From Streptomyces sp. WMMC500 (GTDB lineage Bacteria > Actinomycetota > Actinomycetes > Streptomycetales > Streptomycetaceae), in the NCBI RefSeq assembly GCF_027497195.1, contig NZ_CP114905.1, positions 2,776,001-2,840,000 of the forward strand: a stretch of 64,000 bases of DNA. Reading direction: 5' to 3'. The translations under genes and the position numbers were made by a program. Below are positions 31,291 to 53,763 of this stretch, one piece after another. The stretch's first letter is position 1; each line of letters starts with the position of its first letter. The notes beneath the pieces were generated by a model. That model was not told the origin of the DNA and did no database searches. It was given only the letters and a program-made list of their open reading frames with translations.

Positions 31291-33693
31291 TCAGCCGGTG
31301 GCGAGCCGGCGGGTCACCTGGACGCGGGACTGGCAGCCGAGTTTGCGCATCACCTTGCGCAGATGGTTCACGACCGTCCACTCGGCGATGCCGAGCCGGC
31401 GGGCGATGACGCGGTTCGTCAGCCCCTCGGACACCAGGAGCGCGACCTCCAGCTCCCGCTTGGTGAGGATGTCGGCCACGTCGGCGGGCACGTCCGTCCC
31501 GGCCGCGGGACCCGCGTCCTCAGAGGGCATCAGTCGCATCGCCGCCTCCCAGGTCAGTTCGGCGCCGGAGCGCCACGCCCACATGTAGTCGTCGGCGCTC
31601 AGCTCCTGGCTGGCGGTGGCGAGGATGGCCGTGGTCAGCTCGGCCAGCGGCCGGGGGCGGGCGAGGCCCTGGCGCCGGCGCAGCCGGTTGGCCAGGCCCA
31701 GCGTCGCGGTGAGCAGCCGCCAGTCGGTGATCCGGCGCCACTTGTAGAGCGCGATCGCCAGCATCTCCAGGCACTCGGGCCGCTCCGGCGCGTCCGCCAG
31801 CCCGCCGAGCTGCTCGGCGGCGTCCGCGAACAGGGTGCGCGTCTCGGCCGAATCCTGCTCCAGCAGCCGGACGGAGGCGAGGACGTAGCGGGCGGTCACC
31901 GTGCCGCCGAGGTCCTCGTGGCCCAGCTCCGCCGCCAGGGCGGTACGCGCCAGCTCGTCGGCGCGGGCGAGGTTGCCCGCCTCGCGCAGCACGGCGGCGA
32001 GCCGCCGGGTGAGGTGCCGGCCGGCGCTCGCCGCGGCGTCGCCGTTGGTCCCGGCGCGGGTGGGCGTGGTGATGACGGCGAGCCCTTCCTCGAACCGGCG
32101 GCGGGCGCCGTCCAGGTCGCCGCCGGCGTACGCCTCGTCGCCGAGCAGCCCGAGGCAGCGCACCACGCCGGCGTCGTCGTGCACGGCGCGGTAGGCGTCG
32201 CGGGCCTGGGCGAGGTAACCGCGGGCCGCGCCGGAGCCGAGCCGCATCGCCAGCCCGCCGGCGGCCTCCAGCGTGCGGGCGTGCAGCCGCGCGTCCTCGA
32301 CGCCGGCCCGCAGCGCTTCCTGGGTCAGCCGCAGGCACTGGCGGGTCTGGCCCGTACCGGTGGACTGCTCGCGCAGCGCGCCGGCGAGCACCGCCATGGA
32401 CCGGCCGTCGCCCGCCTCCCGCCAGTAGCCGAACGCCGCGAGCAGGTCGGCCCGGCACTCCGGGCCGGCCCCGGGGCGCGGTCCCGCGACCGCCGTGCCG
32501 GCCTCGGCCGGGGGTGCGGGGCGGGGCATGGCGAGCGCGCGGAAGTACTCGCCGTGGGCCTTGCGCAGCGTCGCGTGGCAGGGCAGCAGGGCGAGCGAGC
32601 GGGCCGCGGCGTGCCGTACGGGGGCGGGGATGCTCAGGCTCAGCTCGCCGTCGGGCCGCTCGTCGGGGATGACGACGCTCGCGTCGATGAGCCGCTCCAT
32701 GGTCCGGTACCCGGCGGCGTCGAAGCCGGTGAGCACGCCGGCCGCGGCGCGGGTGGTGAACGGGCCCTCGAAGACGGCGAGTTGGTTCAGCAGCAGCCGT
32801 TCCTCCGCGGGCAGCCGGGCGAAGACCCAGGCGACCATGTCGGAGATGCCGGCGTGCCGCGAGTACGGGTGCCGGCCGGCGCGGCGCAGGTCGTCGGTGC
32901 CGCGCTCGAAGCGCTCCAGGATGAGGTCGGGTTCGGCCAGCCTGACCTGCTCGGCGGCCAGCTCGACGGCGAACGGCAGCCCGCCGACGAGCCGGCAGAG
33001 GGCCAGCACGTAGCGGAGGTTCTCCGCCGTCAGCTTGAACTCGGGCCGTACCGCCCGCGCGCACTGTACGAACAGCTCCACGGCCGGAATCCGTGAGACC
33101 GCCGGGAGGTCGGCCTCGACGCCGTGCCCGGTCGGGAGCGGCCGGAGCCGTACGACCCGTTCGCCGTACAGCCCGAGGCGGGCGGTGCCGACCGCGACGA
33201 TCCGCACCTCCGGGAAGCTCCGCCGGAACTCGGCGAGCAGTGGCGCCAGTTCATCGGCGACGTCCTCGTAGTGGTCGAACAGTACGGTGACCGGCCCCGG
33301 GCCGAGCCGCTCCAGGGACGCGCGGACCGAACCGGGGTCCTCCTGGAACTGCTCCGTGAGCCGGCGCAGCATCAGCGCGCCCATGGCGGGATCCGGGATC
33401 CGGGCGAAGTCGAACACCTCGACGGTGCCGCCCGGGCCCGACCCGAAGCGGCGGAAGTACTCCATGACGAGCCGGCTCTTGCCCACCCCGGCCGGCCCCG
33501 TGACGGTCACCAGACCGGCGTCGGGCGCGGACAGCACGGTGGCCAGCCGATCGAGGTCGCGGGTGCGACCGATCAGCGACGTGGGCGTGGCACCGATGTA
33601 TCCCGCGGGACTGGTCGTCCCGCCTGCTAACAGGTCCTCCGGACCCCACAGGTTCTCGCGCTCCGCGGCGGCGACTACGGCGTCGGCGTTCAT
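31291..33693 (-). CDS. Large LuxR-family regulator with N-terminal AAA/NB-ARC ATPase
   Basis: An 800-residue LAL-type regulator. IGRTRDLDRL and Walker A GPAGVGKS (66-73) open an ATPase domain, and VTVLFDHYEDVADEL is the Walker-B region. The middle (about 400-720) is helical and Ala/Leu-rich, TPR-like. The C-terminal GerE helix-turn-helix is LTKRELEVALLVSEGLTN and WTVVNHLRKVMRKLG (about 735-795). Such regulators often act as cluster-situated activators. It lies downstream of, and in the same direction as, rppA, 230 bp away, and ends in its own terminator. No clear ribosome-binding site precedes the ATG, so the exact start is uncertain. Confidence 0.88.
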   Translation of the reverse strand: MNADAVVAAAERENLWGPEDLLAGGTTSPAGYIGATPTSLIGRTRDLDRLATVLSAPDAGLVTVTGPAGVGKSRLVMEYFRRFGSGPGGTVEVFDFARIPDPAMGALMLRRLTEQFQEDPGSVRASLERLGPGPVTVLFDHYEDVADELAPLLAEFRRSFPEVRIVAVGTARLGLYGERVVRLRPLPTGHGVEADLPAVSRIPAVELFVQCARAVRPEFKLTAENLRYVLALCRLVGGLPFAVELAAEQVRLAEPDLILERFERGTDDLRRAGRHPYSRHAGISDMVAWVFARLPAEERLLLNQLAVFEGPFTTRAAAGVLTGFDAAGYRTMERLIDASVVIPDERPDGELSLSIPAPVRHAAARSLALLPCHATLRKAHGEYFRALAMPRPAPPAEAGTAVAGPRPGAGPECRADLLAAFGYWREAGDGRSMAVLAGALREQSTGTGQTRQCLRLTQEALRAGVEDARLHARTLEAAGGLAMRLGSGAARGYLAQARDAYRAVHDDAGVVRCLGLLGDEAYAGGDLDGARRRFEEGLAVITTPTRAGTNGDAAASAGRHLTRRLAAVLREAGNLARADELARTALAAELGHEDLGGTVTARYVLASVRLLEQDSAETRTLFADAAEQLGGLADAPERPECLEMLAIALYKWRRITDWRLLTATLGLANRLRRRQGLARPRPLAELTTAILATASQELSADDYMWAWRSGAELTWEAAMRLMPSEDAGPAAGTDVPADVADILTKRELEVALLVSEGLTNRVIARRLGIAEWTVVNHLRKVMRKLGCQSRVQVTRRLATG

Positions 33694-33923: not shown

Positions 33924-35021
33924 TCAGCCGACGGCGGCGGCAAGCGGGGTGCCCGCCGCCTTCGCCCGGGGGGTCTCGCCGACCCAACTGCCCACGGACA
34001 TCTCGGCGGTGATGCCGGGGCCGAAGCCGGCGATCATGCCGCTGGCGCCGGGCAGGACGGAGCCCTCCTCGAAGAGGCGGCGCAGCGCCTCCAGCACGAC
34101 GGCGCTGGCGATGTTCCCGTAGTCGGTCAGGGTCGACCAACTGTGCCGGAACATGTGGCGGTCGGTGTTGAGGTACTTGCTCAGGTCGTCCAGGATCCGC
34201 GGCCCGCCGGCGTGGATGATGTAGAAGTCCAGGTTCTCGACGTCCCAGCCGTGCCTCGTGGCCAGTTGGCGCAGCACCGGCGCGAGCGGCTCCATGGTGC
34301 CGGGGACCCGGCGGTCGAGCTGGAAGTGGAAGCCGGTGGAGCGGACGGCGTAGGAGATCCACTCCTCGGTGTCCGGGATGAGGTACGAGGCGTTGCGCTC
34401 CAGCGTCACGCCGGTGCCCCCGCGGCCGCGGACGACGGCGGCGGCGACGGCGTCGCCGAAAAGGCCGTCGGAGAGGAGCGAGCCGATGCCGTCGTCCTCC
34501 GGCTGGTAGCACAGGGAGCACAGCTCACAGGAGACGATGAGGACGTTGCTGTCCGGGTACGCGCGGCAGAAGTCGTGGGCGCGGTTGATGGCGGCGCCGC
34601 CCGCGGCGCAGCCGAGCTGCGCGATGGGGATCTGCCGGGTGTCGGAGCGGAACCCCATCTTGTTGATCAGCCACGCGGTCAGCGAGGGCATGAGGAACCC
34701 GGTGCAGGACACGTAGATGATCACGTCGATGTCCCGGGCGGTCACGTCCGCGTTCGCGAGTGCCTCCTCGATGACCGGCGGGGTCATGTTCTTCGACTCG
34801 ACCTCGTATATCCGGTTGCGCTCCCGGAGACCGGGGTGGTCGAGCGTCTTCTCGATGGGCTGGACGATGTGCCTTTTCCGTACTCCGGTCTTCTGGATGA
34901 GCCGGAGCGCGAGCGGAAGCTGTGGCTTTCCCGCGTGCACCTTCTTGGCGAATTCCAGGGTCTCTTCCATGGTGATGACGTATTCCGGTACGCTCACCGC
35001 TGGCTTGCAGAGAGTCGACAT
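33924..35021 (-). CDS. rppA: Type III polyketide synthase, 1,3,6,8-tetrahydroxynaphthalene synthase
   Basis: A 365-residue chalcone-synthase-fold enzyme. RppA condenses five malonyl-CoA into 1,3,6,8-tetrahydroxynaphthalene, the precursor of flaviolin, melanin-type pigments and naphthoquinone meroterpenoids. The catalytic triad is Cys138 (AQLGCAAGG), His270 (FYIIHAGG) and Asn303 (YGNIAS), the same numbering I recall for S. griseus RppA. Tyr224 (WISYAVR) also matches a residue important for its pentaketide cyclisation. ATG 35021 aligns with the family start (MSTLCKPA); an ATG three codons upstream is possible. The promoter carries three SARP-type heptads. Confidence 0.95.
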   Translation of the reverse strand: MSTLCKPAVSVPEYVITMEETLEFAKKVHAGKPQLPLALRLIQKTGVRKRHIVQPIEKTLDHPGLRERNRIYEVESKNMTPPVIEEALANADVTARDIDVIIYVSCTGFLMPSLTAWLINKMGFRSDTRQIPIAQLGCAAGGAAINRAHDFCRAYPDSNVLIVSCELCSLCYQPEDDGIGSLLSDGLFGDAVAAAVVRGRGGTGVTLERNASYLIPDTEEWISYAVRSTGFHFQLDRRVPGTMEPLAPVLRQLATRHGWDVENLDFYIIHAGGPRILDDLSKYLNTDRHMFRHSWSTLTDYGNIASAVVLEALRRLFEEGSVLPGASGMIAGFGPGITAEMSVGSWVGETPRAKAAGTPLAAAVG

Positions 35022-35437
35022 GCCTGGCATCCACCTTCTGTAGGTAGAGATTTCCCCGGAGTTTCCCGTCGCGCCCACTCGGGGTTGCAGCGAATTCGAC
35101 CGCGCAACCGCCCCGGTCGGCACGGTGCGCAAGCGGTATCTTTGCCGGGTTCGCTTGGGTTCGGCTTGGTGTCGACTTGGCAACCTGTGAGCAAAGTCCT
35201 TCGATCATGCGGAGGCGCAGGTCACCTCCGTAAAGACGCCCCGTCGCGCGCTGCCGGAAGGCCGTGGCACGGCCCGGGCCCGCGGGGCGGCACGCCGGCC
35301 CGGTGCCGCACCTCACATTCCGGCGGGATGTCTTGTCGTACAGGTGGGGACGGCGCACGCGTCCCCCGGCGAGCGGGCGTCCGGGAACCACGGCCCGCTC
35401 TCCGGCGATGATCCCACCCGACCGGTCTGGAGAAGGC
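35022..35437. other. Divergent control region rppA / LUD gene
   Basis: 416 bp. The rppA-proximal part holds the SARP-type promoter and a leader of about 110 nt. The remainder (35190-35437) is GC-rich with no convincing gene or second promoter. GGAGAAGG at 35429-35436 is the ribosome-binding site for the LUD gene. Confidence 0.6.
35138..35181 (-). promoter_or_regulatory. SARP-type promoter of rppA
   Basis: On the minus strand: GCCAAGT (35181-35175), ACCAAGC (35170-35164), CCCAAGC (35159-35153), each 11 bp apart. Nine bases then separate them from a -10-like AAAGAT (35143-35138). No -35 hexamer is needed in SARP-dependent promoters because the heptads replace it. The same CCAAGT core and 9-bp distance recur at 37997 and 46093. 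Confidence 0.75.
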
Positions 35438-35896
35438 ATGACGACCTCGGCACCCTCGTTCAGCGAGCCCGCGTCCGCGGAGCGCCTGGAGATCACGGCC
35501 GCCGCGCTGACGGGCAACGGCTTCGAGGCCGAGATCCTCGACGGCGCCCCGGCCGCGCGCTCCCGCGTCCGGGAACTGATCCCCGGGGGCGCGACGGTGT
35601 TCACCGGGACCAGCGAGACGCTGCGCCTGTCCGGCATCGGCGAGGACGTCGACGAGAGCGGGCGGTACGACTCGGTCAGGAAACGCAGCCTGACCATGGA
35701 CCGCGCCGCGCAGCGCGACGAGATCCGGCGGCTCCTCGCCGGCCCCGACGTCATCGTCGGCAGCGTCCACGCGGTGACCGAAACCGGCTCCCTCGTGATC
35801 GCCTCGGCCAGTGGCAGCCAGCTCACCGGCTACGCCGGCGGCGCCTTCCCCGGGCGGGGCACCGTCCTGCGGCTCCGTGAAGCCATCGGGTTCTGA
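35438..35896 (+). pseudogene. LUD-domain (LutC/YkgG-type) protein with an apparent internal in-frame deletion
   Basis: 152 residues. The N-terminal 130 residues follow the LUD family closely (SAERLEITAAALTGNGF, GATVFTGTSETLRLSGI, GSVHAVTETGSLVIASASG). At about residue 135 the chain jumps from GSQLTGYAGGA to the normal C-terminal ending FPGRGTVLRLREAIGF. From memory of full-length actinomycete homologues (about 200-210 residues), roughly 55 residues carrying the conserved VVGAQKIVPDL-type segment are missing. The frame is intact and the GGAGAAGG ribosome-binding site is good, so it may be made, but the fold would be broken. LUD proteins act in lactate or redox metabolism. Confidence 0.6.
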
Positions 35897-35900
35897 GACC

Positions 35901-36563
35901 GTGAGGACCGGGGACGGCGGCGCGACGACCACCGGGGCGGGACCGGGCTGCGGAGGGCCGCCGGCCGGCCCGGACGTGCTCCTGGACGAGCGGCGCCAGG
36001 TGATCAGTCTGGCCTACCGGCTGCTGGGTTCGCTGTCCGACGCCGAGACGCCGGCCGAGCGGGTGGCCTTCGTGCTGCACGACGTGTTCCGCTACTCCTT
36101 CGCCGAGGTGGCCGAGGTCGTCGGCCGGTCCCCTGCGGCCTGCCGGCAGTTGGCGTCCTCCGCCCGCCGCCGGGTCCCTCAGTCCGGGGACACCGCGACC
36201 CCGCAGGCCCGGAGGGCCGGCATCGTCCGGGAGTTCAAACGGGTGTGGGAGGCCGGGGACATCGACGCCCTGATCGGGCTGCTGGATCCGCACGCCACCG
36301 TGACCGCCGACGGCGGCGGGCTGGCCGCCGCCGCGGCCCACCCCGTCACCGGCGGCGGCCGGATCGCCAGGGCCTGCGCCGACCTGGCCGCGCGTGCCCC
36401 GCTGCACCTCCTGGAACGTACGGTCAACGGCCGGCCCGGCCTGGTCAGCCGGCGGAACGGCGCCACCGTCGCGGTCCTGGCCCTCGCCGTCGAAGGCGAC
36501 CGGATCACCCGCATCTGGGCCGTGCTGAATCCGGAGAAGCTCCGCCGGTGGACCACCCGCTGA
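35901..36563 (+). pseudogene. ECF sigma factor (SigJ/ECF41-like) lacking most of region 2
   Basis: 220 residues. It starts like an ECF41-type sigma factor (ERRQVISLAYRLLGSLSDAE, 30-49), then jumps directly to region 4 (TPAERVAFVLHDVFRYSFAE, 50-69; SPAACRQLASSARRR, 77-91). The SnoaL-like C-terminal domain follows (about 105-220), complete to its usual end (WAVLNPEKLRRW). About 80-100 residues, covering the rest of region 2 and the linker, are absent compared with the intact relative at 36885. Core-polymerase and -10 recognition should be lost. The join lies near base 36047 and is flanked by ACGCC repeats, consistent with slip deletion. GTG start, 4 bp after the truncated LUD gene. Confidence 0.65.
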
Positions 36564-36884
36564 CCCGGCGGCGGCGTGCCCCGCACCCCGGCGTGGCGGG
36601 GGCGCCCGTGGCACGTCCGCGAAGTCCCGCGATCCCGTGCACCGTCCGTTGCCCGCCGTGCGGACTCATGCCGGATATCCGGCCACCTGCTCGGGGCACG
36701 GGGCGCAACCGTCGCCCTACGGAGTAGGCTCGTTGCCGGCTGTTGTCACTGTCAGCCGCGACGAGCAGAGGTGGGGAGGCGGCGACGCGGAACGGCACCG
36801 GGCCGGTGGCGGTTCCCGGCTCGCCGTACCGGTGGGATCCGCCGGTCACCCACATGGCAGGCCCTGGGGAGAGGACTTGACCAG
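36564..36884. other. Intergenic region upstream of the intact ECF sigma gene
   Basis: 321 bp with no convincing gene. A TGTCACT at 36744-36750 resembles the -35 of ECF41 autoregulated promoters, but no CGTC -10 is found at the right distance. GGGGAGAGGA (36867-36876) is the ribosome-binding site of the sigma gene. Confidence 0.4.
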
Positions 36885-37784
36885 ATGAGCGATCACGACT
36901 TGCTGGCCGAACGGTTCGAGAAGGATCGCCCCCGTCTGCGCGCGCTCGCGTACCGGATGCTCGGCTCCGGCGCCGAGGCCGAGGACGCCGTCCAGGAGGC
37001 GTGGATCCGGCTGAGCCGCTCGCGCACCGACGAGGTGGAGAACCTCAGCGGCTGGCTGACGACGATCGTCGCCCGGGTGTCGCTGAACATGCTGCAGTCC
37101 CGCAAGTCGCGCCCCGAAGACCTGGTGGACACGACCGAGACCGCGGAGCCGCACGGCGAGGGCGCGCCGGCGGACCCGGAGGAGGAGGCGGTCCTCGCCG
37201 ACTCCGTCGGCGTCGCGCTGCTGGTGGTCCTCGACACCCTCACGCCGGCCGAGAGGCTGGCGTTCGTGCTGCACGACATGTTCGCCGTGCCCTTCGACCA
37301 GATCGCGACCATCGTCGACCGCTCCCCCGCCGCGGCCCGCCAGTTGGCCAGCCGCGCCCGCCGCCGCGTGCAGCAGCGCGCACCGCTCGCCAGAAGCAGG
37401 GCCATCGGCGTCTACAGCGAGAACGGGCTCGTCCTCAAGAAGGGCAGGTCCGACCTGGCCAACGCGTTCCTCGCCGCGTCCCGCCAGGGCAACTTCGAGG
37501 CGCTGCTGGCGATGCTCGACCCGGACATCGTGCTGCGCTCCGACGCGACCGCCGCGCACCTGGGCATGGACGCGGAACTGCGCGGCGCCGACGCCGTCAC
37601 CCGCCTCTTCGCCGGCCACGCCTGGGCGCCGCTGCCCGCGGTCGTGGACGGGGCGGCGGGGCTGGTGTGGGTGAAGGACGAGGTGCCCTTCCTCTCGTTC
37701 CGCTTCACCGTCGGCGACGGCCTTATCACCGAGATCGCGGTCCAGGCGGAGTTGTCGGACGTCGACATCGTGCTCGCCCTCTAG
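36885..37784 (+). CDS. ECF41-type RNA polymerase sigma factor with SnoaL-like C-terminal domain
   Basis: A 299-residue ECF sigma factor. Region 2 is about 14-80 (LAYRMLGSGAEAEDAVQEAW, LSGWLTTIVARVSLNML). Region 4 is about 125-175 (LTPAERLAFVLHDMFAVPFD, SPAAARQLASRARRRV). The C-terminal SnoaL/NTF2-like extension is about 185-299 (NAFLAASRQGNFEALLAMLD, ending EIAVQAELSDVDIVLAL). In ECF41 proteins this extension replaces a separate anti-sigma factor. It is intact, in contrast to its relative 300 bp upstream. Position between rppA and the carboxylase gene suggests a cluster-linked regulator. A 36-bp perfect palindrome terminates it. Confidence 0.9.
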   Translation: MSDHDLLAERFEKDRPRLRALAYRMLGSGAEAEDAVQEAWIRLSRSRTDEVENLSGWLTTIVARVSLNMLQSRKSRPEDLVDTTETAEPHGEGAPADPEEEAVLADSVGVALLVVLDTLTPAERLAFVLHDMFAVPFDQIATIVDRSPAAARQLASRARRRVQQRAPLARSRAIGVYSENGLVLKKGRSDLANAFLAASRQGNFEALLAMLDPDIVLRSDATAAHLGMDAELRGADAVTRLFAGHAWAPLPAVVDGAAGLVWVKDEVPFLSFRFTVGDGLITEIAVQAELSDVDIVLAL

Positions 37785-37794
37785 CAGAGCGGTA

Positions 37795-37830
37795 CCGTCC
37801 GTACGGGCCGGGCCCGGCCCGTACGGACGG
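37795..37830. terminator. 36-bp perfect palindrome terminator
   Basis: Bases 37795-37812 are exactly complementary to 37813-37830, giving an 18-bp arm with no designed loop. It begins 11 bp after the sigma-factor stop codon and separates it from the SARP-controlled carboxylase promoter. Confidence 0.8.
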
Positions 37831-37974
37831 CGAAAGACAACCGGCCGGGCTTCTCCCGCGCGACGGCGATATCGAGCCGCGATTCCGGTTCTCACCCACC
37901 GCCGAATACGGCGGCTTTCCCGCGCTTCGGCCCGTTACCCCTATCGGCGCCGCCGGTTCGCCGAGCGCCCTCTG

Positions 37975-37986
37975 GTGAAATTTCAC
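37975..37986. promoter_or_regulatory. AT-rich palindrome GTGAAATTTCAC upstream of the carboxylase SARP box
   Basis: A perfect 12-bp palindrome ending 10 bp before the first heptad. Its TGAAATTTCA core occurs again at 46834-46843, also in the cluster. A possible binding site for a second regulator. Confidence 0.4.
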
Positions 37987-37996
37987 GCGCCGAACC

Positions 37997-38051
37997 GCCA
38001 AGTGGGCGCCAAGTCGTTGGTGTGTGGTGGCCAAGTGGCGTGCCTGATGCT
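37997..38051 (+). promoter_or_regulatory. SARP-type promoter of the carboxylase operon
   Basis: GCCAAGT heptads at 37997-38003, 38008-38014 (11 bp later) and 38030-38036 (22 bp later). Nine bases then precede the -10-like GATGCT (38046-38051). The block 37998-38058 is 54/61 identical to the block upstream of the ABM gene on the other strand (46092-46032). Confidence 0.8.
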
Positions 38052-38348
38052 GGGCGGGCATGGACTCGGGTGGCACGTCGTGCGCATCTGACGGGAGTGA
38101 CGACGCTGGTTGGGGTGGTGATCCGTGAGCCGGAATCCGACGCGCACACCGGGTCTCCCCCGCACCGCCACCCTCAAGACCCGCCGCGTGGAACCCACCC
38201 CCATCCTCCGCGACCAGCTCCAAGAACAGTCCTGATCCCGTGGCCCGGTGCCGGATCCGGCACCGGCCAGACACCCGGCGGCACGCCGCGCGGAACAGCC
38301 GCCGGCAGCCCCCGCCGACCGCCATGTGAAATCTGGGAGGTCTGACCG
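38052..38348 (+). other. Long 5' leader of the carboxylase mRNA
   Basis: About 290 nt between the predicted start of transcription (near 38058) and the carboxylase GTG. It holds a possible 36-codon reading frame (38125-38235), given separately. GGGAGG (38336-38341) is the carboxylase ribosome-binding site. Confidence 0.5.
38125..38235 (+). CDS. Possible 36-residue leader peptide
   Basis: A GTG-started frame (MSRNPTRTPGLPRTATLKTR, ending ILRDQLQEQS) with GGTGGTGA 4 bp upstream. It would be the first frame on the SARP-driven carboxylase transcript. Third codon positions are about 83% G/C, compatible with coding but not decisive. No known family. It may be a leader peptide, a small product, or chance. 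Confidence 0.25.
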   Translation: MSRNPTRTPGLPRTATLKTRRVEPTPILRDQLQEQS

Positions 38349-41300
38349 GTGTTCAGCCGTGTTGCGATCATCAACCGTGGAGAGGCCGCCATGCGGCTCG
38401 TCCGGGCCGTCGGCGAACTCAACGAGACCGGCGCACCCCGGATCGAGACCGTGGCCTTCTACACCGACGCCGACGCCACGGCGACGTTCGTACGCGCGGC
38501 AGACATCGCCTACGACCTGGGCCGGGCCGCGGACCGCCCCTACCTGGACCTCGCCGTGCTGGAGCGCGCCCTCGTCGAGACCGGCGCGGACGCCGCCTGG
38601 GTGGGCTGGGGCTTCGTCGCCGAGGATCCGGCCTTCGCCGAGTTGTGCGGGAAGCTCGGCGTGACGTTCATCGGCCCCGACCCGGAGGCGATGCACAAGC
38701 TGGGCGACAAGATCAGCGCCAAGCTCCTCGCCGAGGAGGTCGGCGTCCCCGTCGCGCCGTGGAGCCGCGGGCCGGTCGCGGACCTGGACACGGCGCTGCG
38801 CGAGGCCGAGCGGATCGGCTACCCCCTGATGCTCAAGGCGACCGCGGGCGGCGGCGGCCGGGGCGTACGGGCCGTGCACCGGCCCGAGGAGCTGTCCGAG
38901 GCGTTCCAGCGCACCAGCCAGGAGGCCGAACGTGCCTTCGGCAACGGCGCGTTGTTCCTGGAGCGGCTGCTCGTCCACGCCCGGCACGTCGAGGTGCAGG
39001 TGATCGCCGACGGCCAGGGCGGCGTGTGGGCGCTGGGCGTGCGGGACTGCTCCGTCCAGCGCCGGAACCAGAAGATCGTCGAGGAGTCCTCCTCGCCGGT
39101 GCTGGCGGCCGAACAGGTGGAGCGGCTGAAGGAGTCCGCGGAGCGGCTCGCGCTCGCGGTGGGCTACCGTGGCGCGGCCACCGTGGAGTTCCTCTACCAG
39201 CCGAAGGACGGGCTGTTCGCCTTCCTGGAGGTCAACACCCGGCTGCAGGTGGAGCATCCGGTCACCGAGGCCACCACCGGCATGGACCTCGTCAAGGCGC
39301 AGCTCCACGTGGCCGCGGGCGGCCGGCTGACCGGCACCCGGCCGGACGAGCTGGGGCACGCCGTCGAGGCCCGGCTCAACGCCGAGGACCCCGACCGCGA
39401 CTTCGCGCCCGCCCCGGGCCGTATCGCCCTGCTCGACCTGCCCGCGGGACCCGGGATCCGGGTCGACACCGGCGTCAGCCAGGGCGACTCCATCCCCGCA
39501 GACTTCGACTCGATGATCGCCAAGGTCATCGCGTACGGGCGCGACCGCGCGGAGGCGCTGTCCCGGCTGCGGCACGCGATGCGCCGGACCACGGTGCTGA
39601 TCGAGGGCGGCACCACCAACAAGAGCTTCATCCTCGACCTCCTCGACGAGCCCGAGGTGATCGACGCGCGCGCCGACACCGGCTGGATCGACCGGGTGCG
39701 CGCCGCGGGCGGGCTGGCGTCGCCGCGGCACGCGGGCGTCGCGCTGGCCGCCGCGGCGATCGAGGCGTACGAGGACGGGAAGCGGGCAGAGTTGCAGCGG
39801 CTGCTGGGCACCGCGCGCGGCGGTCGCCCGCAGGTGCACCACGAGGGCAGCCGCCCGGTCGACCTCACCCTGCGCGGTGCCGGCTACCGGCTCACCGTCG
39901 CCGAGACCGGCCCCGGCCGCTACCGGGTGGGCTTCCGCTCCGGCACCGACGACGGCACTGTGCGGGCCGTCGACGCCGTGCTGGAGCGGTTGAACGAACA
40001 CACCGGGCAGATCCGGCTCGACGGCCACCGCTTCCGGCTGGTCATCGGCGCGCACGGCCCGGTCCACCTGGTCGAGGTCGACGGGGTGACGCACCGGATC
40101 AGCCGCGACGAGGGCGGCGTGGTCCGCTCGCCCGCCCCCGCGCTGGTGGTCGCGACGCCGCTCGGCGCCGGCGACGAGGTCGAGGAAGGCGCCCCGGTCC
40201 TGGTCCTGGAGAGCATGAAGATGGAGACGGTGCTGCGTGCGCCGTTCCGTGCGGTGCTCAAGGAGTCGCTCGTCTCGGTCGGCAGCCAGGTCGAGACCGG
40301 CGCGCCGCTGCTGCGCCTGGAGCCGCTGGACGACGCCGACGCCACGCCCGTCGCCGCCGGCGCCGATCTGGACCTGCCCGCCCCGCCGGCCGAGCCGACC
40401 GCGGCGCAGCGCGCCGAGCGGGGCCTTGCGGACCTGCGCGGCAGGCTCCTCGGCTTCGACGCCGACCCCGGCGGCGCCGACGACGCCCTCACCGGCTACC
40501 TCGCCCTGCGCGCCGGGCTGCCGGAGCGTCCGCTGACGGCGGAGGCCGGGCTGCTGGAGGTCTTCGCCGACCTCTCCGAGCTGAGCCGCAACAAGCCGGA
40601 GCACGAGGAGACCGCGGCCGAGACCTGGGTGCGCAGCCCGCGCGAGTTCTTCCACACCTACCTGCAGAGCCTCGACGCCGAGCGCGCCGGGCTCTCGGAG
40701 AGGTTCCAGGGCCGGCTGACCCGGGTGCTGGGCCACTACGGCGTCGACGGTCTGGACCGTACGCCCGCGCTGGAGGAGGCGGTCTTCCGGATCTTCCTGG
40801 CCCGGCAGGCCGCCACCGCCGACGTCTCCGTGATCACCGCGCTGCTGCAGCAGTGGCTCAACGAGACGCCGCCGCCCGAGGAGCAGCGCCAGGCCGTGAG
40901 CCAGGCCCTCGAACACCTCATCCGGGCCACCCAGTTGCGCTTCCCGCTGATCGGCGGCCTCGCGCGGAGCCTGATGTTCCGTTGGTACGCGCAGCCGACG
41001 CTGCGCCGTTCCCGGGCCCGGGTCTACGAGCAGGTACGCCACCACCTGCGCTACCTCGACGCGCACCCGGACGCGGCCGACCGCGACGAGCGGATCGCCG
41101 ACATGGTCGCCAGCCCCGAGTCGCTCATCCAACTGCTGAGCGAGCGCGTCGACCGCCCGGGCGCCGAGCCGGACCCCCTGCTGGAGGTCCTCATCCGCCG
41201 CGCCTACCGCGACCACCGGCTGACCGGCGTGCACTGCGAGACCGTCGCGGGACGGCCGTTCGTCTCCGGCCGCTACGAACTCGACGGCGCCTCCCACCGG

Positions 41301-43841
41301 CTGCTGGTGACCGTCGCCGACGTCGACGACCTGTCCGGGGCGGCGAAGGCGCTGGCCGAGGTGGCCGCCGCGGAGCCGGACACGACCGCCGTCGTCGCCG
41401 AGTTCTACCTCACCTGGACCGGCCTGCCGCCGGAGACCGACGAGATGGCGGCGGGGCTGCGCGCGACGCTGGCCGCCTCCCTCCCCGCCGGCCTGCACCG
41501 GATCACCACGACGGTTGCCGGGCGCGACGGCGCGGAGCCGCAGCACTTCACGTTCCTGCCCTCCCCGGACGGCCCGGCCGAGGACATGCTGATGCGCGGC
41601 ATGCACCCGCTCATCGGCCAGCGCCTGCTGCTGCGGCGGCTGCGGAACTTCGACCTCACCCGGCTGCCGTCCGTGAACGACGACGTCTACCTGCTGCGGT
41701 GCGTCGCGCCGAGCAACCCGGCGGACGAGCGGCTGGTCGCGATGGCACAGGTCCGTGACCTGACGCCGCTGCGGGACGACGAGGGCCGCATCCTCGCGCT
41801 GCCCGAGGTCGAGGCGGCGCTCGGCGCCTGCCTGGACGCGATCCGCAAGGAGCAGATCTGGCGGCCGGCGACCAGGGGCCAGGACACCAACCGCATCTTC
41901 ATCAACGTCCGCCCGCCCAGCGACCTCACGCTGGAGGAGCTGCACGTGGTCGCCCGGCGCCTGCTGCCGACCACCCGGGGCCTGGGCGTGGAGGAGGTGC
42001 TGTTCCTCGGCTGCCGGCGCGGCCGGCGCGGCGGGCTGGTCCCGACGGCGGTGCACGTGACGTACGACGTGGCCGCGGGCGTCCGCCTCAGCGTCACCGA
42101 CCCGCCCACCGACCTGATCCAGCCGCTCGACGACTACCGCCAGAAGGTGCTGCGGGTGCGGCGCCGCGGCACGGTCTACCCGTACGAGCTGTTCGACATG
42201 ATCGCCGGCGCCGGCGGCACCTTCACCGAGCACGACCTCGACGAAGCCGGCGCACTGGTCCCCGTCGAGCGGCCGAAGGGCCGGAACAAGGCCGGCATCG
42301 TGGCCGGCGTGGCCACCACGCCGACCGAGCGGTACCCGGAGGGCGTCACCCGCGTCGTGCTCCTCGGCGACCCGGTGAAGGCGCTGGGCGCGCTCTCCGA
42401 GGCGGAGTGCGCGCGGGTCGTCGCGGCGCTGGACCTGGCGGAGCGGCTGCGGCTGCCCGTCGAGTGGTACGCGCTGTCCGCGGGCGCCCGGATCGCGATG
42501 GACTCGGGCACCGAGAACATGGACTGGATCGCCCGGGCGCTGCGCCGCATCGTGCACTTCACCCAGGACGGCGGCGAGATCAACGTCGTCGTCGCCGGCG
42601 TCAACGTCGGCGCGCAGCCGTACTGGAACGCCGAGGCCACCATGCTGATGCACACCCGGGGCGTGCTCGTGATGACCCCGGACTCGGCGATGGTGCTGAC
42701 CGGCAAGCGGTCGCTGGACTTCTCCGGCGGCGTCTCCGCCGAGGACAACTTCGGCATCGGCGGCTACGACCGGGTGATGGGCCCGAACGGGCAGGCGCAG
42801 TACTGGGCGCCGGACCTGCAGGCCGCGCGGGACGTGCTGCTGTCGTACTACGACCACAGCTACGTGCTGCCCGGCGAGACGGGCCCCCGCAGGGCGGCGA
42901 CCACCGACCCGGTCGACCGGGACGTCAGCGACTTCCCGCACGTCGCCGAGGGCAGCGACTTCACCACGGTCGGGGAGATCTTCTCCGCCGCCACCAACCC
43001 GGACCGCAAGAAGCCGTTCGACATCCGCACGGTGATGCGCGCGCTCGCCGACCAGGACCACGCGGTGCTGGAGCGCTGGGCCGACATGGCCGAGGCCGAG
43101 ACCGCGGTGGTGCAGGACGTGCACCTGGGCGGGCGGCCGGTGTGCCTGGTGGGCATCGAGTCGCGGTCGGTGCAGCGGCGCGGCTTCCCGCCCACCGACG
43201 GCCCGGACGCGTACACGGCGGGCACGCTCTTCCCGCGTTCGTCGAAGAAGGTCGCGCGGGCGGTGAACGCGGCGAGCGGGAACCGGCCCCTGGTGGTGCT
43301 GGCGAACCTCTCCGGGTTCGACGGCTCGCCGGAGTCGATGCGTGAGCTGCAACTGGAGTACGGGGCGGAGATCGGCCGGGCGATCGTCAACTTCCGCGGA
43401 CCGATCGTGTTCTGCGTGATCTCCCGCTACCACGGCGGCGCGTTCGTGGTGTTCTCCAAGGCGCTGAACCCGGGCATGACGGTGCTGGCGGTGGACGGTT
43501 CGTACGCCTCGGTCCTCGGCGGTGCGCCGGCCGCCGCGGTCGTCTTCGCCGCCGACGTCGACTCCAGGACGGCCGCCGACGCGCGGGTGGCGGACCTGGA
43601 GGCGCGCATCTCCGCGGCCTCCGGCCGGGAGCGGGCGCAGCTCGCCGACCAACTGGAGAGCGTGTGGGCGGCGGTGCGCGCGGAGAAGCTGGGCGAGGTC
43701 GCCGCGGAGTTCGACGGCGTGCACTCGATCCAGCGGGCGCAGCGGGTGGGTTCCGTGGACGCGATCATCCGGCCGGAGGAGCTGCGGCCGCAGATCATCG
43801 CGGCCGTGGAGCGCGGGCTCGACGGAACACGTACCGCATGA
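38349..43841 (+). CDS. Single-chain multidomain acyl-CoA (acetyl-CoA) carboxylase
   Basis: An 1830-residue enzyme with all carboxylase functions in one chain. Residues 1-450 are biotin carboxylase (VAIINRGEAAMRLVRAV, ATP-grasp KATAGGGGRGVRAVH, EVNTRLQVEHPVTE). About 580-650 is the biotin carrier, with biotinyl-Lys624 in ESMKMET. About 660-1130 is a helical central region (FFHTYLQSLD, LRRLRNFDLTRLPS) resembling the ACC central domain of eukaryotic ACC. About 1150-1830 is carboxyltransferase (DMIAGAGG, GPNGQAQYWAPDL, FCVISRYHGGAFVVFSKALN). Most bacteria use separate subunits. It should make malonyl-CoA, five of which RppA uses. GTG start after GGGAGG; a SARP-type promoter lies 300 bp upstream. 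idi and a prenyl-diphosphate synthase gene follow. Confidence 0.92.
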   Translation: MFSRVAIINRGEAAMRLVRAVGELNETGAPRIETVAFYTDADATATFVRAADIAYDLGRAADRPYLDLAVLERALVETGADAAWVGWGFVAEDPAFAELCGKLGVTFIGPDPEAMHKLGDKISAKLLAEEVGVPVAPWSRGPVADLDTALREAERIGYPLMLKATAGGGGRGVRAVHRPEELSEAFQRTSQEAERAFGNGALFLERLLVHARHVEVQVIADGQGGVWALGVRDCSVQRRNQKIVEESSSPVLAAEQVERLKESAERLALAVGYRGAATVEFLYQPKDGLFAFLEVNTRLQVEHPVTEATTGMDLVKAQLHVAAGGRLTGTRPDELGHAVEARLNAEDPDRDFAPAPGRIALLDLPAGPGIRVDTGVSQGDSIPADFDSMIAKVIAYGRDRAEALSRLRHAMRRTTVLIEGGTTNKSFILDLLDEPEVIDARADTGWIDRVRAAGGLASPRHAGVALAAAAIEAYEDGKRAELQRLLGTARGGRPQVHHEGSRPVDLTLRGAGYRLTVAETGPGRYRVGFRSGTDDGTVRAVDAVLERLNEHTGQIRLDGHRFRLVIGAHGPVHLVEVDGVTHRISRDEGGVVRSPAPALVVATPLGAGDEVEEGAPVLVLESMKMETVLRAPFRAVLKESLVSVGSQVETGAPLLRLEPLDDADATPVAAGADLDLPAPPAEPTAAQRAERGLADLRGRLLGFDADPGGADDALTGYLALRAGLPERPLTAEAGLLEVFADLSELSRNKPEHEETAAETWVRSPREFFHTYLQSLDAERAGLSERFQGRLTRVLGHYGVDGLDRTPALEEAVFRIFLARQAATADVSVITALLQQWLNETPPPEEQRQAVSQALEHLIRATQLRFPLIGGLARSLMFRWYAQPTLRRSRARVYEQVRHHLRYLDAHPDAADRDERIADMVASPESLIQLLSERVDRPGAEPDPLLEVLIRRAYRDHRLTGVHCETVAGRPFVSGRYELDGASHRLLVTVADVDDLSGAAKALAEVAAAEPDTTAVVAEFYLTWTGLPPETDEMAAGLRATLAASLPAGLHRITTTVAGRDGAEPQHFTFLPSPDGPAEDMLMRGMHPLIGQRLLLRRLRNFDLTRLPSVNDDVYLLRCVAPSNPADERLVAMAQVRDLTPLRDDEGRILALPEVEAALGACLDAIRKEQIWRPATRGQDTNRIFINVRPPSDLTLEELHVVARRLLPTTRGLGVEEVLFLGCRRGRRGGLVPTAVHVTYDVAAGVRLSVTDPPTDLIQPLDDYRQKVLRVRRRGTVYPYELFDMIAGAGGTFTEHDLDEAGALVPVERPKGRNKAGIVAGVATTPTERYPEGVTRVVLLGDPVKALGALSEAECARVVAALDLAERLRLPVEWYALSAGARIAMDSGTENMDWIARALRRIVHFTQDGGEINVVVAGVNVGAQPYWNAEATMLMHTRGVLVMTPDSAMVLTGKRSLDFSGGVSAEDNFGIGGYDRVMGPNGQAQYWAPDLQAARDVLLSYYDHSYVLPGETGPRRAATTDPVDRDVSDFPHVAEGSDFTTVGEIFSAATNPDRKKPFDIRTVMRALADQDHAVLERWADMAEAETAVVQDVHLGGRPVCLVGIESRSVQRRGFPPTDGPDAYTAGTLFPRSSKKVARAVNAASGNRPLVVLANLSGFDGSPESMRELQLEYGAEIGRAIVNFRGPIVFCVISRYHGGAFVVFSKALNPGMTVLAVDGSYASVLGGAPAAAVVFAADVDSRTAADARVADLEARISAASGRERAQLADQLESVWAAVRAEKLGEVAAEFDGVHSIQRAQRVGSVDAIIRPEELRPQIIAAVERGLDGTRTA

Positions 43842-44046
43842 CGGGCGCCGGAGAGCCCTTGTGCCCGCGGTGCCGGGGCCGGCCGGCAGCCGGCCCGCGC
43901 ACCTCATCGATGAAGACGTCCCGCGAGCGCACGTCGCCTGTCCGCGTACGCGGTCAGGAGCCGGGCGCCGGCAGCGGGTTCGCACGCATCGGGTACGCCG
44001 TCAGCCGGCGTGTCCGGGTTGTTCACCACACTAGGTAGGAGACGTC

Positions 44047-44619
44047 ATGGTTACTCGGGAATCGCACTTGGTTGAGCTCGTCGACGCGGGCGGCACCGCC
44101 CTCGGCTCCCTCAGGGTCGCCGAGGCGCACACGGCGCCCGGCCGGCTGCACCGGGCGTACTCGGTGATGCTGCTGGACGAGCAGGGCCGCGTGCTGGTGC
44201 AGCAGCGGGCGAAGGTGAAGACCCGCTTCGCGCTGCGCTGGGCCAACGCCTGCTGCGGCCACCCGGCGCCGGGGCAGCCGCTGCTGGAAGCCGCTGCCGA
44301 GCGGCTGGTCGAGGAGATCGGGCTGCGCGGGGTGCCGCTGGAGGAGGCCGGCGTGTATCTCTACCGGGCCGAGGACCCGGAGACCGGCCGGATCGAGCAC
44401 GAGTACGACCACGTCGTGGTCGGCCGGGTACCGGTGGACGTGCCGCTGGACCCGGACCCGGCCGAGGTGGCCGACGTGCGCTGGGTGGCGCCGCAGGAGC
44501 TGCGTGCGGACCTGGCCGCCCGCCCGGACGACTACGCGCCGTGGCTGGCAGGCGTGCTCGTGGTGGCGAGCAACGCCGCCGCCCACGTGCCGGCGGCCGC
44601 CGGCCTCGCCACCCGGTAG
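44047..44619 (+). CDS. idi: Isopentenyl-diphosphate delta-isomerase, type I
   Basis: A 190-residue Nudix-fold isomerase interconverting IPP and DMAPP. The catalytic Cys70 is in ACCGHP (Cys67 of E. coli Idi). The metal and acid residues Glu117 and Glu119 are in RIEHEYDH, and the Nudix-like helix is ERLVEEIGLRG. AGGTAGGAG precedes the ATG. It lies 205 bp after the carboxylase gene with no visible promoter between, and 94 bp before the cis-prenyltransferase gene, so the three are probably one transcript. No mevalonate-pathway genes are present. The isomerase would raise DMAPP, which lavandulyl-type synthases use twice per product. Confidence 0.95.
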   Translation: MVTRESHLVELVDAGGTALGSLRVAEAHTAPGRLHRAYSVMLLDEQGRVLVQQRAKVKTRFALRWANACCGHPAPGQPLLEAAAERLVEEIGLRGVPLEEAGVYLYRAEDPETGRIEHEYDHVVVGRVPVDVPLDPDPAEVADVRWVAPQELRADLAARPDDYAPWLAGVLVVASNAAAHVPAAAGLATR

Positions 44620-44713
44620 GGCTCCGGGAGCCCGGACGATCACCGACCGTGTTGCGATCAAGAACGTGTGAGGACCGAGGACAAGCCGGATCACGCAAGG
44701 AGAGGAGAAGACC

Positions 44714-45367
44714 GTGACCAACCTGATGTTACTTCCCGACGGAATGCGCCGCTGGTCCAAGGCGAACGGCGTCTCTCTCGGCGACGGTTACCGGGCGATG
44801 GCGGACAAGCTCGTCGAGTTCACGGAGTGGACGAGGGAAGACGGCATCACGAACCTGTACGTCACGACCTCCTCGGCCGCTGACTTCAGCCGCCCCGAGC
44901 CGGCGGTGACGACGTTCCTGGTCGCCTTCAACGACGTGGCGCAGCGCACCCACGACACCTGCAACTTCGACTTCTCCGGGTCGCTCGACCTGGTGCCCCA
45001 GAAGTACCTCACCGAGCTGGAGGAGCTGCGGGACAAGTCGGACAAGGAGTCGGGCTTCACCCTGCACTACATCATCGGCATGTCCCTCTCCGCCGAGGTG
45101 ATACGGCTCTTCAACGAGCTCAACGGCAAGATCCCGGAGCTGACGGAGAAGATTCTGGCCGGGCACACGTACGTCCCGCAGCAGGTCGACTACCTCATCC
45201 GCACGGGCGGTTCGATCCGTATGTCGTCCTTCTTCCCGATGCTGTCCCCGTACGCCGAACTGCACTTCTCCCCCGTGCTGTTCCCCGACATGAGGCGAGC
45301 CGACTACGACGCCGCGCTCAAGGACCTGCGGCATCGGGAACGCCGCTACGGGAACTACCCGGCGTGA
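44714..45367 (+). CDS. Cis-prenyltransferase-fold enzyme resembling lavandulyl / cyclolavandulyl diphosphate synthase
   Basis: A 217-residue member of the undecaprenyl-diphosphate-synthase fold. The N-terminal diphosphate loop is LLPDGMRRW (Asp9), in place of the usual [25 protein letters not shown] (158-174, Arg163, Arg169) and [12 protein letters not shown] (181-192) match the C-terminal signatures. It is shorter than chain-elongating family members (about 250 residues). The [18 protein letters not shown] start matches my memory of Streptomyces lavandulyl and cyclolavandulyl diphosphate synthases, which join two DMAPP head-to-middle. The exact product (lavandulyl, cyclised, or longer) is not determined. 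It follows idi and is likely SARP-controlled from the carboxylase promoter. Confidence 0.85.
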
Positions 45368-45390
45368 GCTCCGGCGAACGACTCGGGCGT

Positions 45391-45465
45391 GGTCCGGCTC
45401 CGGACCCCGCCTGAGACGTGCGCCGACCATGGCCCGGCCGCCCCCGCCGGGCCCGCCCGGCGGGG
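45391..45465. terminator. Two hairpins in the convergent region after the cis-prenyltransferase gene
   Basis: A short one, GGTCCGG (45391-45397) with CCGGACC (45400-45406), and a stronger 11-bp one, 45442-45452 with 45455-45465. They lie between the convergent prenyltransferase and ABM genes and can serve both directions. Confidence 0.6.
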
Positions 45466-45607
45466 CCGCGACCGGACGGCCCGAGCCCGGCGGCCGGTTC
45501 CGCAGGGGCGAGGCAAATCCGCGAACGTGTGCGCCCGCACACCGCCTTGCCGGCGCACGCGGCATACCCGTGCGCGCCGGCGCCGCGGGACGGCCGTCCC
45601 GGCCGGA

Positions 45608-45913
45608 TCAGTGGAAGAGGCGGTACGAACCAAGGGCCGTCAGCGGTTCGAGCGACAGCGGCTCCGTGAGCCACTCGCCCTTCAGGCCCTTCATCGTCTC
45701 CTGGAACGTGGGCAGGGTCTGGAGCGGGTTGTTCTCGTCGTCCTCCAGGTCCACCACGATGATCAGGGTCCGCCGGTCGGGGAGCATGCACCAGGCGTAG
45801 CGCAAGCCCTCGAGGCCGGCTTCCTCGACCGCCGCGAACAACTCCTTCGCGGCCTTCTCCGCTGTCTCGACCTTGTCTTCCTTGAGCGTGGAACGGAACA
45901 TGCGGATGCTCAT
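45608..45913 (-). CDS. Small ABM-type (dimeric ferredoxin-fold) protein, possible monooxygenase
   Basis: A 101-residue protein with the beta-alpha-beta-beta-alpha-beta rhythm of antibiotic-biosynthesis-monooxygenase and related stress-response folds: SIRMFRSTLKEDKVETAEKA, YAWCMLPDRRTLIIVVDLED, TFQETMKGLKGEWL, LTALGSYRLF. GAGGAGACTCCC precedes the ATG. A SARP-type promoter almost identical to that of the carboxylase operon drives it, placing it firmly in the cluster. Cofactor-free enzymes of this fold, such as ActVA-Orf6, oxidise phenols to quinones. Oxidation of tetrahydroxynaphthalene or a prenylated form is therefore a reasonable guess. A non-catalytic role is possible. Confidence 0.7.
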   Translation of the reverse strand: MSIRMFRSTLKEDKVETAEKAAKELFAAVEEAGLEGLRYAWCMLPDRRTLIIVVDLEDDENNPLQTLPTFQETMKGLKGEWLTEPLSLEPLTALGSYRLFH

Positions 45914-46038: not shown

Positions 46039-46093
46039 AGCATCCGGCACCCCACTTGGCCACCGCACACCGATGACTTGGCGGCCACTTGGT
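46039..46093 (-). promoter_or_regulatory. SARP-type promoter of the ABM gene
   Basis: On the minus strand: ACCAAGT (46093-46087), GCCAAGT (46082-46076, 11 bp on), GCCAAGT (46060-46054, 22 bp on). Nine bases precede GATGCT (46044-46039) as -10. Same spacing scheme and 54/61 identity with the carboxylase promoter block. Leader of about 120 nt to the ATG. Confidence 0.8.
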
Positions 46094-46831
46094 GACGGCG
46101 CCCGGGGGCGCACTCCGCCGGGCGCCTCGCCGGGCGGCGGCAGCGGGGCACGCCCGCGCCTGCCGGCCCGCGGCAGCGCGCAGCGGCCCGCTGGGGCCAC
46201 GAGGGGGGCCCGGGTCCCGGGCGTGCTCCCGTCCTCGTACGCGGCGCTGGAGAAGCCCTGGACGCCGCGGCACGCCGCGGTATGCCGCGCCCTGCACCAG
46301 AAGCGCCGGGTCGCCGCAGGGCGCGCTCAGCGGCGTCAGGGCGCCGGCGCCGGCGGCGCGCGCGGACGCCGGGGCGGCGTGCGACGCGGACGAGCCTCCG
46401 CCGGCTCCGCCGCTGCCGCCCCCCGGGCCGGGCCCGGCGGCATCCCCTCGCTCCGGCCGCGATCTTCTAACGCCGCGGGCGGCGGTCGCGCCTCCGCAAC
46501 GCCCACGAGGGGATCTGCCAGGGGTGATGACCCGGCGACCGGAACGACCCTTCCGATTCCGCTTTCGCTCTCATTGCAAAGGCGCAACCCGCCTCCGGAC
46601 CGGTGAGGGAAGATCTAATTCAACACCCAAGGAATTTGTAATACAGTAGGAGAACTCTTGGTGACACGGACATGTCGGCATGGCCCGACGGCTTCGGGTG
46701 ACGTTTCGGCGAACTGCGGATTATTTCGTCGGGATAACCGCCTGAACCAGGTTTCGAGAATGCGGGGTTCCGCATCAGGGCAGGGCCGTGACCAGCCTCG
46801 GAGCGATATCTGATCGTTCGCACCGCGCCAG

Positions 46832-53607: not shown

Positions 53608-53763
53608 GCGAAGGGGTCTCCTCTGGATCTCGAAGTACCCCTCCAGCGTTTCCGCCGGGACCCCGCGCCGTCGTCGTCGCCCGTACGGCACTTCCGTGTA
53701 CTGAAAAACAAGTAGTGCCGCCGCTCCCCGTCCACCGCCGGGATGACCCCGGCGGACGCGGGC

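Follow-up and report, generated by a model that had tools for sequence, protein, structure and literature searches.

Precursor genes of the locus

The window analyzed here, a stretch of 64,000 nucleotides (C1:2776001-2840000) of a single-contig Streptomyces-like genome of 8.61 Mb (called G000 here), contains a locus in which a gene for an RppA-type 1,3,6,8-tetrahydroxynaphthalene (THN) synthase (THNS) accompanies genes for an acyl-CoA carboxylase, an isopentenyl-diphosphate isomerase (Idi), a cis-prenyltransferase of the cyclolavandulyl diphosphate synthase (CLDS) type, and a SARP regulator. The reading frames of these retained genes are intact. The locus was compared mainly with its counterparts in CNH099, S. 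aculeolatus, G051, and G187. Gene content, the number of ABBA prenyltransferases, and low synonymous divergence (dS) suggest that G000 belongs to the MAR4 group and that the five locus-bearing genomes form one clade. The main features are listed below.

33924..35021, - strand: RppA-type THNS, a type III polyketide synthase (PKS) of 365 aa with Cys138/His270/Asn303
35165..35180, - strand: SARP-type heptad repeat 5' of rppA; repeat also in G051, CNH099, and S. aculeolatus
37998..38013, + strand: SARP-type heptad repeat 5' of the carboxylase-Idi-CLDS genes
38349..43841, + strand: single-chain biotin-dependent acyl-CoA carboxylase (probably acetyl-CoA) of 1830 aa, with biotin carboxylase, biotinyl, ACC_central, and carboxyltransferase domains
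43838..43881, + strand: remnant of w1176, the gene behind the carboxylase in CNH099 and G051; 44 bp, 79.5% identity to CNH099 C48:6216-6259, E=8e-6
44047..44619, + strand: Idi, type I, from its NUDIX domain and NCBIfam scores
44714..45367, + strand: cis-prenyltransferase of CLDS type, 217 aa, Pfam PF01255, GTG start
45611..45913, - strand: orphan protein of 101 aa, found in each of the five MAR4-type genomes, with a further copy near the chromosome end
46077..46092, - strand: SARP-type heptad repeat 5' of the orphan gene; not exact in S. aculeolatus
46133..46543, - strand: decayed pieces of an MFS transporter gene whose intact form is present in S. aculeolatus and G051; 150 bp at 77%, E=1e-23, plus weaker pieces
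47913..49061, + strand: SARP regulator (Trans_reg_C and BTAD domains), 97% identical in S. aculeolatus, ratio of nonsynonymous to synonymous divergence (dN/dS) 0.10

The RppA gene starts with an ATG at position 35021 on the - strand, and the type III PKS triad named in the original prediction (Cys138, His270, and Asn303) stands exactly at the expected positions. The closest solved structure is 1u0m (593 bits), and the protein is 91% identical to that of CNH099 and 96% identical to the G051 copy adjacent to a LuxR/AAA (LAL) regulator gene. The carboxylase gene is the sole full-length copy found in the genome; a single-chain carboxylase with an ACC_central domain is an arrangement typical of eukaryotes. 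It is kept in four MAR4-type relatives at 87 to 91% identity, and the carboxylase of Actinomadura 7K507 (70% identity) has one in-frame stop as assembled. The assignment of the Idi to type I was borne out by the NCBIfam model PRK03759 (score of 179.6, above the cut-off of 127), with TIGR02150 falling just under its cut-off (102.4 versus 105.8). The orphan protein matched no Pfam or NCBIfam model, has relatives in 6 protein clusters at an E value of <=1e-5 (window protein included), and was not seen in the stretches compared from six other cis-prenyltransferase carriers.

The cis-prenyltransferase, first described as lavandulyl or cyclolavandulyl like, can be narrowed to the CLDS type from its sequence relationships. 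Its closest solved structures are the CLDS of Streptomyces sp. CL190 (5ygj, 346.5 bits) and 5xk3 (311.5 bits), which we take to be the isosesquilavandulyl diphosphate synthase Mcl22, and all others score <=71.2 bits. The window enzyme (PRENYLTRANSFERASE) shares identities of 70.5% with the CL190 CLDS, 76.5% with a Streptomyces viridochromogenes protein named CLDS (P0012), and 63.0% with 5xk3. Of the 32 diagnostic positions that are alike in the two CLDSs and different in Mcl22, it matches the CLDSs at 29 and Mcl22 at 2; when the CL190 CLDS alone is the reference, the CLDS and Mcl22 states number 35 and 19 of 70 positions. Phylogenetic analysis placed it in one clade with the two named CLDSs against Mcl22 (support, 95/95), and neither Mcl22 nor the undecaprenyl synthases are as close to it as CLDS; the undecaprenyl outgroups of one tree were too distant to help. 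The CLDS tree was built without the cis-prenyltransferase of G072, includes that of G025 as P0096, and has identical rows for G091 and P0100. An Mcl22-like isosesquilavandulyl enzyme was rejected on the diagnostic positions together with the CLDS grouping. Unlike the named CLDSs, the window enzyme, whose activity is predicted, is set in a THN-type locus. Close relatives (E<=1e-40) were found in 7 of 392 genomes of a genus sample, own genome counted, and 119 of 424 candidate clusters of a large protein database passed E<=1e-30. One metagenomic protein, P0118 (276 aa), is matched by PF01255 as well as PF11468 in precomputed results; it might join a cis-prenyltransferase to an ABBA prenyltransferase or be the result of a frameshift or of faulty assembly.

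The reported lack of an aromatic prenyltransferase, halogenase, or P450 in the window was reproduced, with no match to these families among 55 translated open reading frames (Pfam, E<=0.001), comprising all 43 from a frame-composition list and 12 others, some in alternative frames. A genome-wide profile search for ABBA prenyltransferases (PF11468) likewise placed none of its five matches inside the window.

Complete and probably reduced versions at one chromosomal place

The flanks and core genes of the locus are common to the window and G051, and the span from LAL to SARP is approximately 49 kb in G051 versus approximately 14 kb in the window. The remaining genes of the window locus and its flanks are as follows.

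31291..33693, - strand: LuxR/AAA (LAL) regulator, left flank; Pfam GerE and AAA_16; orthologues in S. aculeolatus, CNH099, and G051
35438..35896, + strand: LUD-domain protein of 152 aa, PF02589
35901..36563, + strand: sigma-70 region 4 protein, N terminus probably shortened; weak SnoaL match; longer relative in S. aculeolatus
36885..37784, + strand: ECF sigma factor; SnoaL-like tail weak, under the Pfam cut-off
51241..53691, - strand: MMPL transporter, right flank common to S. aculeolatus and G051

The gene order in G051 is LAL-aminotransferase-cupin-RppA-DXS-LUD-ECF-ABBA-polyprenyl synthase-IspG-AMP ligase-carboxylase-(w1176)-RppA2-Idi, followed by O-methyltransferase (OMT)-ABBA-vanadium haloperoxidase 1 (VHPO1)-MFS-VHPO2-CLDS-VHPO3-two proteins with signal-like starts-orphan-AMP ligase-MFS-SARP-MMPL. 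The protein families, including VHPO, DXS, and IspG, were assigned by scanning the G051 proteins or close homologs. In excess of the window, G051 has genes for an aminotransferase, a cupin, DXS, a polyprenyl synthase, IspG, AMP ligases, an OMT, two ABBA prenyltransferases, three VHPOs, a second THNS, transporters, and the two proteins with signal-like starts. The part of G187 that was read, which begins at the ECF gene and ends at the start of the SARP gene, shows this order throughout. In CNH099, one contig carries LAL-aminotransferase-cupin-RppA-ECF-DXS and a second carries carboxylase-OMT-ABBA-VHPO-MFS-VHPO-CLDS-VHPO, with no Idi or second THNS there; the two contigs probably join into one cluster. 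Draft genomes, among them CNH099, S. aculeolatus, MZ04, and Actinomadura, may miss genes.

The window holds remnants of two genes that are present in these relatives, the w1176 piece behind the carboxylase and the MFS pieces, which point to loss rather than gain. The S. aculeolatus locus keeps the carboxylase, Idi, CLDS, orphan, MFS, and SARP genes, retains RppA only as a C-terminal scrap, and gave no match to an ABBA prenyltransferase or haloperoxidase. Its scars differ from those of the window, and the kept gene set is nearly the same.

In MAR4 strains, the cluster HIBGC9 is described as having two type III PKSs and two prenyltransferases; part of it, with three haloperoxidases, is the same as HIBGC8, and it is predicted to make marinone (PMC4650096). 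From its content, the cluster of G051 and G187 is probably HIBGC9, and in G051 it has the window's chromosomal place, RppA, carboxylase, Idi, cis-prenyltransferase, and SARP. The window differs from HIBGC9 in having neither of the two ABBA prenyltransferases, none of the three haloperoxidases, and no second type III PKS, which makes it a reduced relative of an HIBGC9-type cluster rather than a full member. In the CNH099, G051, and G187 cluster matched to the predicted marinone cluster, the CLDS-type gene sits between VHPO genes. Marinone is not known to carry a cyclolavandulyl group. The locus also resembles the merochlorin cluster (in part after PMC4684245) in combining a THNS with an irregular cis-prenyltransferase, and only the complete relatives of the window share its ABBA and VHPO genes. 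The window, in contrast, has no VHPO or ABBA gene, and its cis-prenyltransferase has CLDS rather than Mcl22 states.

The dN/dS values between the window and S. aculeolatus were 0.30 for the carboxylase, 0.31 for Idi, 0.31 for CLDS, 0.10 for SARP, and 0.55 for the orphan (dS, 0.17 to 0.31), and that of RppA against CNH099 was 0.30; eight flanking genes gave 0.19 to 0.43 (dS, 0.18 to 0.24). These are simple Nei-Gojobori estimates, uncorrected for GC-rich codon use and meaningful only gene against gene, and they indicate that the retained genes are under purifying selection.

SARP targets typically carry heptad direct repeats at 11-bp spacing upstream. The repeat CCAAGTNGNCRCCAAG occurs three times in the window, each time 5' of a gene, and in 0 of 100 shuffles, with a pattern devised once the sites were known. 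A less strict pattern that tolerates one mismatch matched 4 times, versus 1.66 expected. Because the pattern was post hoc and 7 of 100 shuffles reach 4 with the looser form, the count alone is weak, and the case for the repeat draws instead on its position 5' of three genes and its conservation in relatives. The exact repeat lies 5' of the rppA position and 5' of the carboxylase in S. aculeolatus, 5' of rppA in CNH099, and 5' of the LAL-linked rppA in G051. G051 and G187 each have two additional sites, and the exact repeat was not found in the stretches searched from the six other cis-prenyltransferase carriers. Control of the three window promoters by the SARP is predicted. Among the stretches searched elsewhere in this genome, two sites lie near the chromosome end and none in the phenazine region described below. 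At C1:91.1-92.0 kb lies the gene of a SARP relative (40%), and the repeat found at the promoter of the window carboxylase stands immediately 5' of it.

ABBA prenyltransferases outside the window

The genome carries five PF11468 ABBA prenyltransferases, all outside the window. Three lie near the chromosome end, one at C1:17078-17995 and two in a second THN cluster (approximately 37 to 74 kb) that also contains three VHPOs and one THNS. The gene at 17078-17995 adjoins a second CLDS (77%) and a second Idi (86%). The segment at C1:9-21 kb duplicates the right half of the cluster in decayed form: the CLDS, ABBA, Idi, and orphan frames are open, and VHPO2, VHPO3, and OMT are scraps only. An IS4/5-type transposase gene adjoins this copy, with an identical repeat near 88-89 kb, and strain WAC 06738 has a CLDS that groups with the chromosome-end one. 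The dN/dS of the chromosome-end ABBA gene is 0.36 to 0.49, versus 0.12 to 0.22 between the three intact-cluster copies.

A fourth ABBA gene (886998) belongs to a phenazine cluster at C1:0.875-0.888 Mb, together with PhzF, a chorismate-binding/GATase protein, two PhzA/B proteins, and an FAD-binding enzyme; the combination of phenazine genes with a prenyltransferase expected of a lavanducyanin pathway thus exists in this genome, outside the window. The fifth gene is at C1:1901131. Two CLDS-type genes were found in the genome, neither near phenazine genes, and none of its five PF01255 genes lies in the phenazine region. All five locus carriers (G000, CNH099, S. aculeolatus, G051, and G187) have two PF03284 phenazine (PhzA/B) genes, one of them approximately 1.8 kb from an ABBA gene. 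Five of the six other cis-prenyltransferase carriers have no PF03284 match, and Actinomadura has PF03284 on a contig other than that of its ABBA matches.

The ABBA tree covers 37 of 47 PF11468 matches, all 5 of this genome and 32 of 42 from ten other genomes; the 10 left out are 3 from G051, 2 from G187, 3 from CNH099, 1 from MZ04, and 1 from G072. Two long branches (CNH_C5 and G025_a) meet away from the clades used. A phenazine-linked clade contains all five genomes. A clade dedicated to the THN/VHPO cluster contains enzymes of this genome, CNH099, G051, and G187 and none of the five S. aculeolatus ABBA enzymes. The clade of 1901131 contains this genome, S. aculeolatus, G051, and CNH099, two G187 enzymes not being in the tree. 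The S. aculeolatus draft lacks the dedicated-clade ABBA, yet keeps its one CLDS-like gene; by elimination, this CLDS should serve another enzyme, with the phenazine-linked one favored. The 1901131-clade enzyme and the ABBA enzymes of the second THN cluster are weaker candidate users.

The phenazine cluster resembles HIBGC11 of strain CNQ-509, predicted to make lavanducyanin, in which CnqP1 is the ABBA enzyme; the cluster of this genome contains no cis-prenyltransferase. CnqP1 was inactive on all seven phenazines tried, in a screen generally with dimethylallyl diphosphate (DMAPP) and geranyl diphosphate (GPP); the donors listed are DMAPP, GPP, and farnesyl diphosphate (FPP), with no cyclolavandulyl diphosphate, and 1-hydroxyphenazine is absent from the acceptors given there (PMC4684245). 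CnqP1 itself probably belongs to the phenazine-linked clade, as judged from its phenazine cluster. According to a MAR4 review, the cyclolavandulyl group is formed first and attached afterwards, and lavanducyanin and the marinocyanins had no assigned cluster (PMC10897937). Among the papers listed in literature searches, most of which were not opened, none was seen to link a CLDS with a THN locus or with the phenazine-linked ABBA enzyme; a 2024 study of a lavanducyanin haloperoxidase may already name a lavanducyanin cluster.

Proposed fate of the cyclolavandulyl group

The locus is real and functional-looking, and it is not stand-alone. The original reading of a naphthol joined to an irregular monoterpene stands insofar as a THNS, an Idi, and a head-to-middle-type cis-prenyltransferase occur together, and fails insofar as it assumed a self-contained cluster. 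The locus is probably a reduced, working allele of a MAR4-type THN-meroterpenoid cluster that provides precursors under a SARP and has the joining done in trans, likeliest by the ABBA enzyme of the phenazine cluster. Deletions would have taken the aromatic prenyltransferases, haloperoxidases, methyltransferase, aminotransferase/cupin pair, and methylerythritol phosphate (MEP)-pathway genes. The SARP would govern the remaining precursor genes, with the carboxylase supplying malonyl-CoA, RppA making THN, and Idi supplying DMAPP, two molecules of which the cis-prenyltransferase would join and cyclize to cyclolavandulyl diphosphate. Attachment to an aromatic ring would then fall to an ABBA prenyltransferase encoded outside the locus.

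More tentatively, the CLDS of the reduced locus may feed cyclolavandulyl diphosphate in trans to the ABBA enzyme of the phenazine cluster (C1:0.88 Mb), approximately 1.9 Mb away, for a lavanducyanin-type N-cyclolavandulyl phenazine, and THN may go to a second product. Several observations weigh against this proposal. A phenazine product would leave the window THNS without a part to play, and no copy of the SARP repeat turned up when the phenazine stretches of G000, G051, S. aculeolatus, and CNH099 were searched. For the phenazine-linked ABBA gene, dN/dS is raised in this genome: 0.32 to 0.49 in comparisons with the other four, versus 0.14 to 0.27 when those four are compared with each other. 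The association of CLDS with phenazine genes may reflect common ancestry, the five genomes being apparently one clade, and an older deletion common to S. aculeolatus followed by different trimming would also fit the scars. The chromosome-end CLDS adjoins a dedicated ABBA gene, and that pair may do the joining here; the inactivity of CnqP1 could equally stem from the acceptors used. The product itself is predicted from genes.

The main rival, which has a lesser but substantial chance of being right, is a cyclolavandulyl-THN or -flaviolin product resembling arromycin, joined by the chromosome-end ABBA enzyme (C1:17078-17995). This enzyme falls in the THN/VHPO-cluster clade, is 78 to 80% identical to the G051, G187, and CNH099 copies, and is encoded beside the second CLDS and Idi, and neither the THNS nor the CLDS of the window is broken. 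In MZ04, which seems to lie outside the clade of the five genomes, a CLDS-type enzyme is clustered with a THNS, two ABBA enzymes, and two VHPO-like genes. Arromycin, a MAR4 compound, is reported as THN with a cyclolavandulyl group on C-2 and is called an anomaly; like most of its group, it has no assigned cluster (PMC10897937). However, S. aculeolatus keeps its CLDS with neither an ABBA enzyme of the chromosome-end type nor a working RppA at the locus (another THNS lies in its second THN cluster), and the chromosome-end segment is decayed around an ABBA gene whose dN/dS is raised.

It is unlikely that the locus is a decaying relic whose genes merely happen to persist and yield no product that matters. 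Many genes are lost, remnants are present, the orphan has a dN/dS of 0.55, and one candidate partner gene lies among broken genes near the chromosome end. The frames and the RppA triad are nevertheless intact, the carboxylase, Idi, CLDS, and SARP have dN/dS values within or below the range of intact neighbors, and S. aculeolatus keeps nearly the same set behind different scars. Very little likelihood attaches to a cis-prenyltransferase that makes a linear polyprenyl or isosesquilavandulyl diphosphate: many relatives bear public names such as undecaprenyl diphosphate synthase or isoprenyl transferase, but the CLDS grouping and diagnostic positions contradict these names, and three other PF01255 genes (237 to 267 bits) are available in the genome for the linear role. 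Least probable is a complete locus in which an unrecognized enzyme, for example, the orphan protein, which has no known family and occurs in every one of the five MAR4-type genomes, joins the naphthol and the prenyl group; the original prediction had allowed for such an enzyme at an unexplained joining step, and it was rejected because relatives with the same genes, the orphan included, have ordinary ABBA prenyltransferases in the cluster, the complete version at the same place has ABBA and haloperoxidase genes, the window has deletion remnants, and five ABBA genes lie elsewhere in the genome.

If the phenazine-cluster ABBA enzyme does draw on the CLDS of the reduced locus, this would provide a CLDS source for lavanducyanin and the marinocyanins and would account both for the inactivity of CnqP1 with DMAPP, GPP, and FPP as donors and for the CLDS kept in S. 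aculeolatus after the naphthol partner genes were lost at the locus. More generally, the locus offers a putative source of cyclolavandulyl diphosphate and names candidate ABBA enzymes for lavanducyanin-, marinocyanin-, and arromycin-type products. A meroterpenoid cluster appears to have shrunk, in each of two species and with scars that differ, to a comparable set of precursor genes, and searches for compact clusters could misread such a set as complete or broken.

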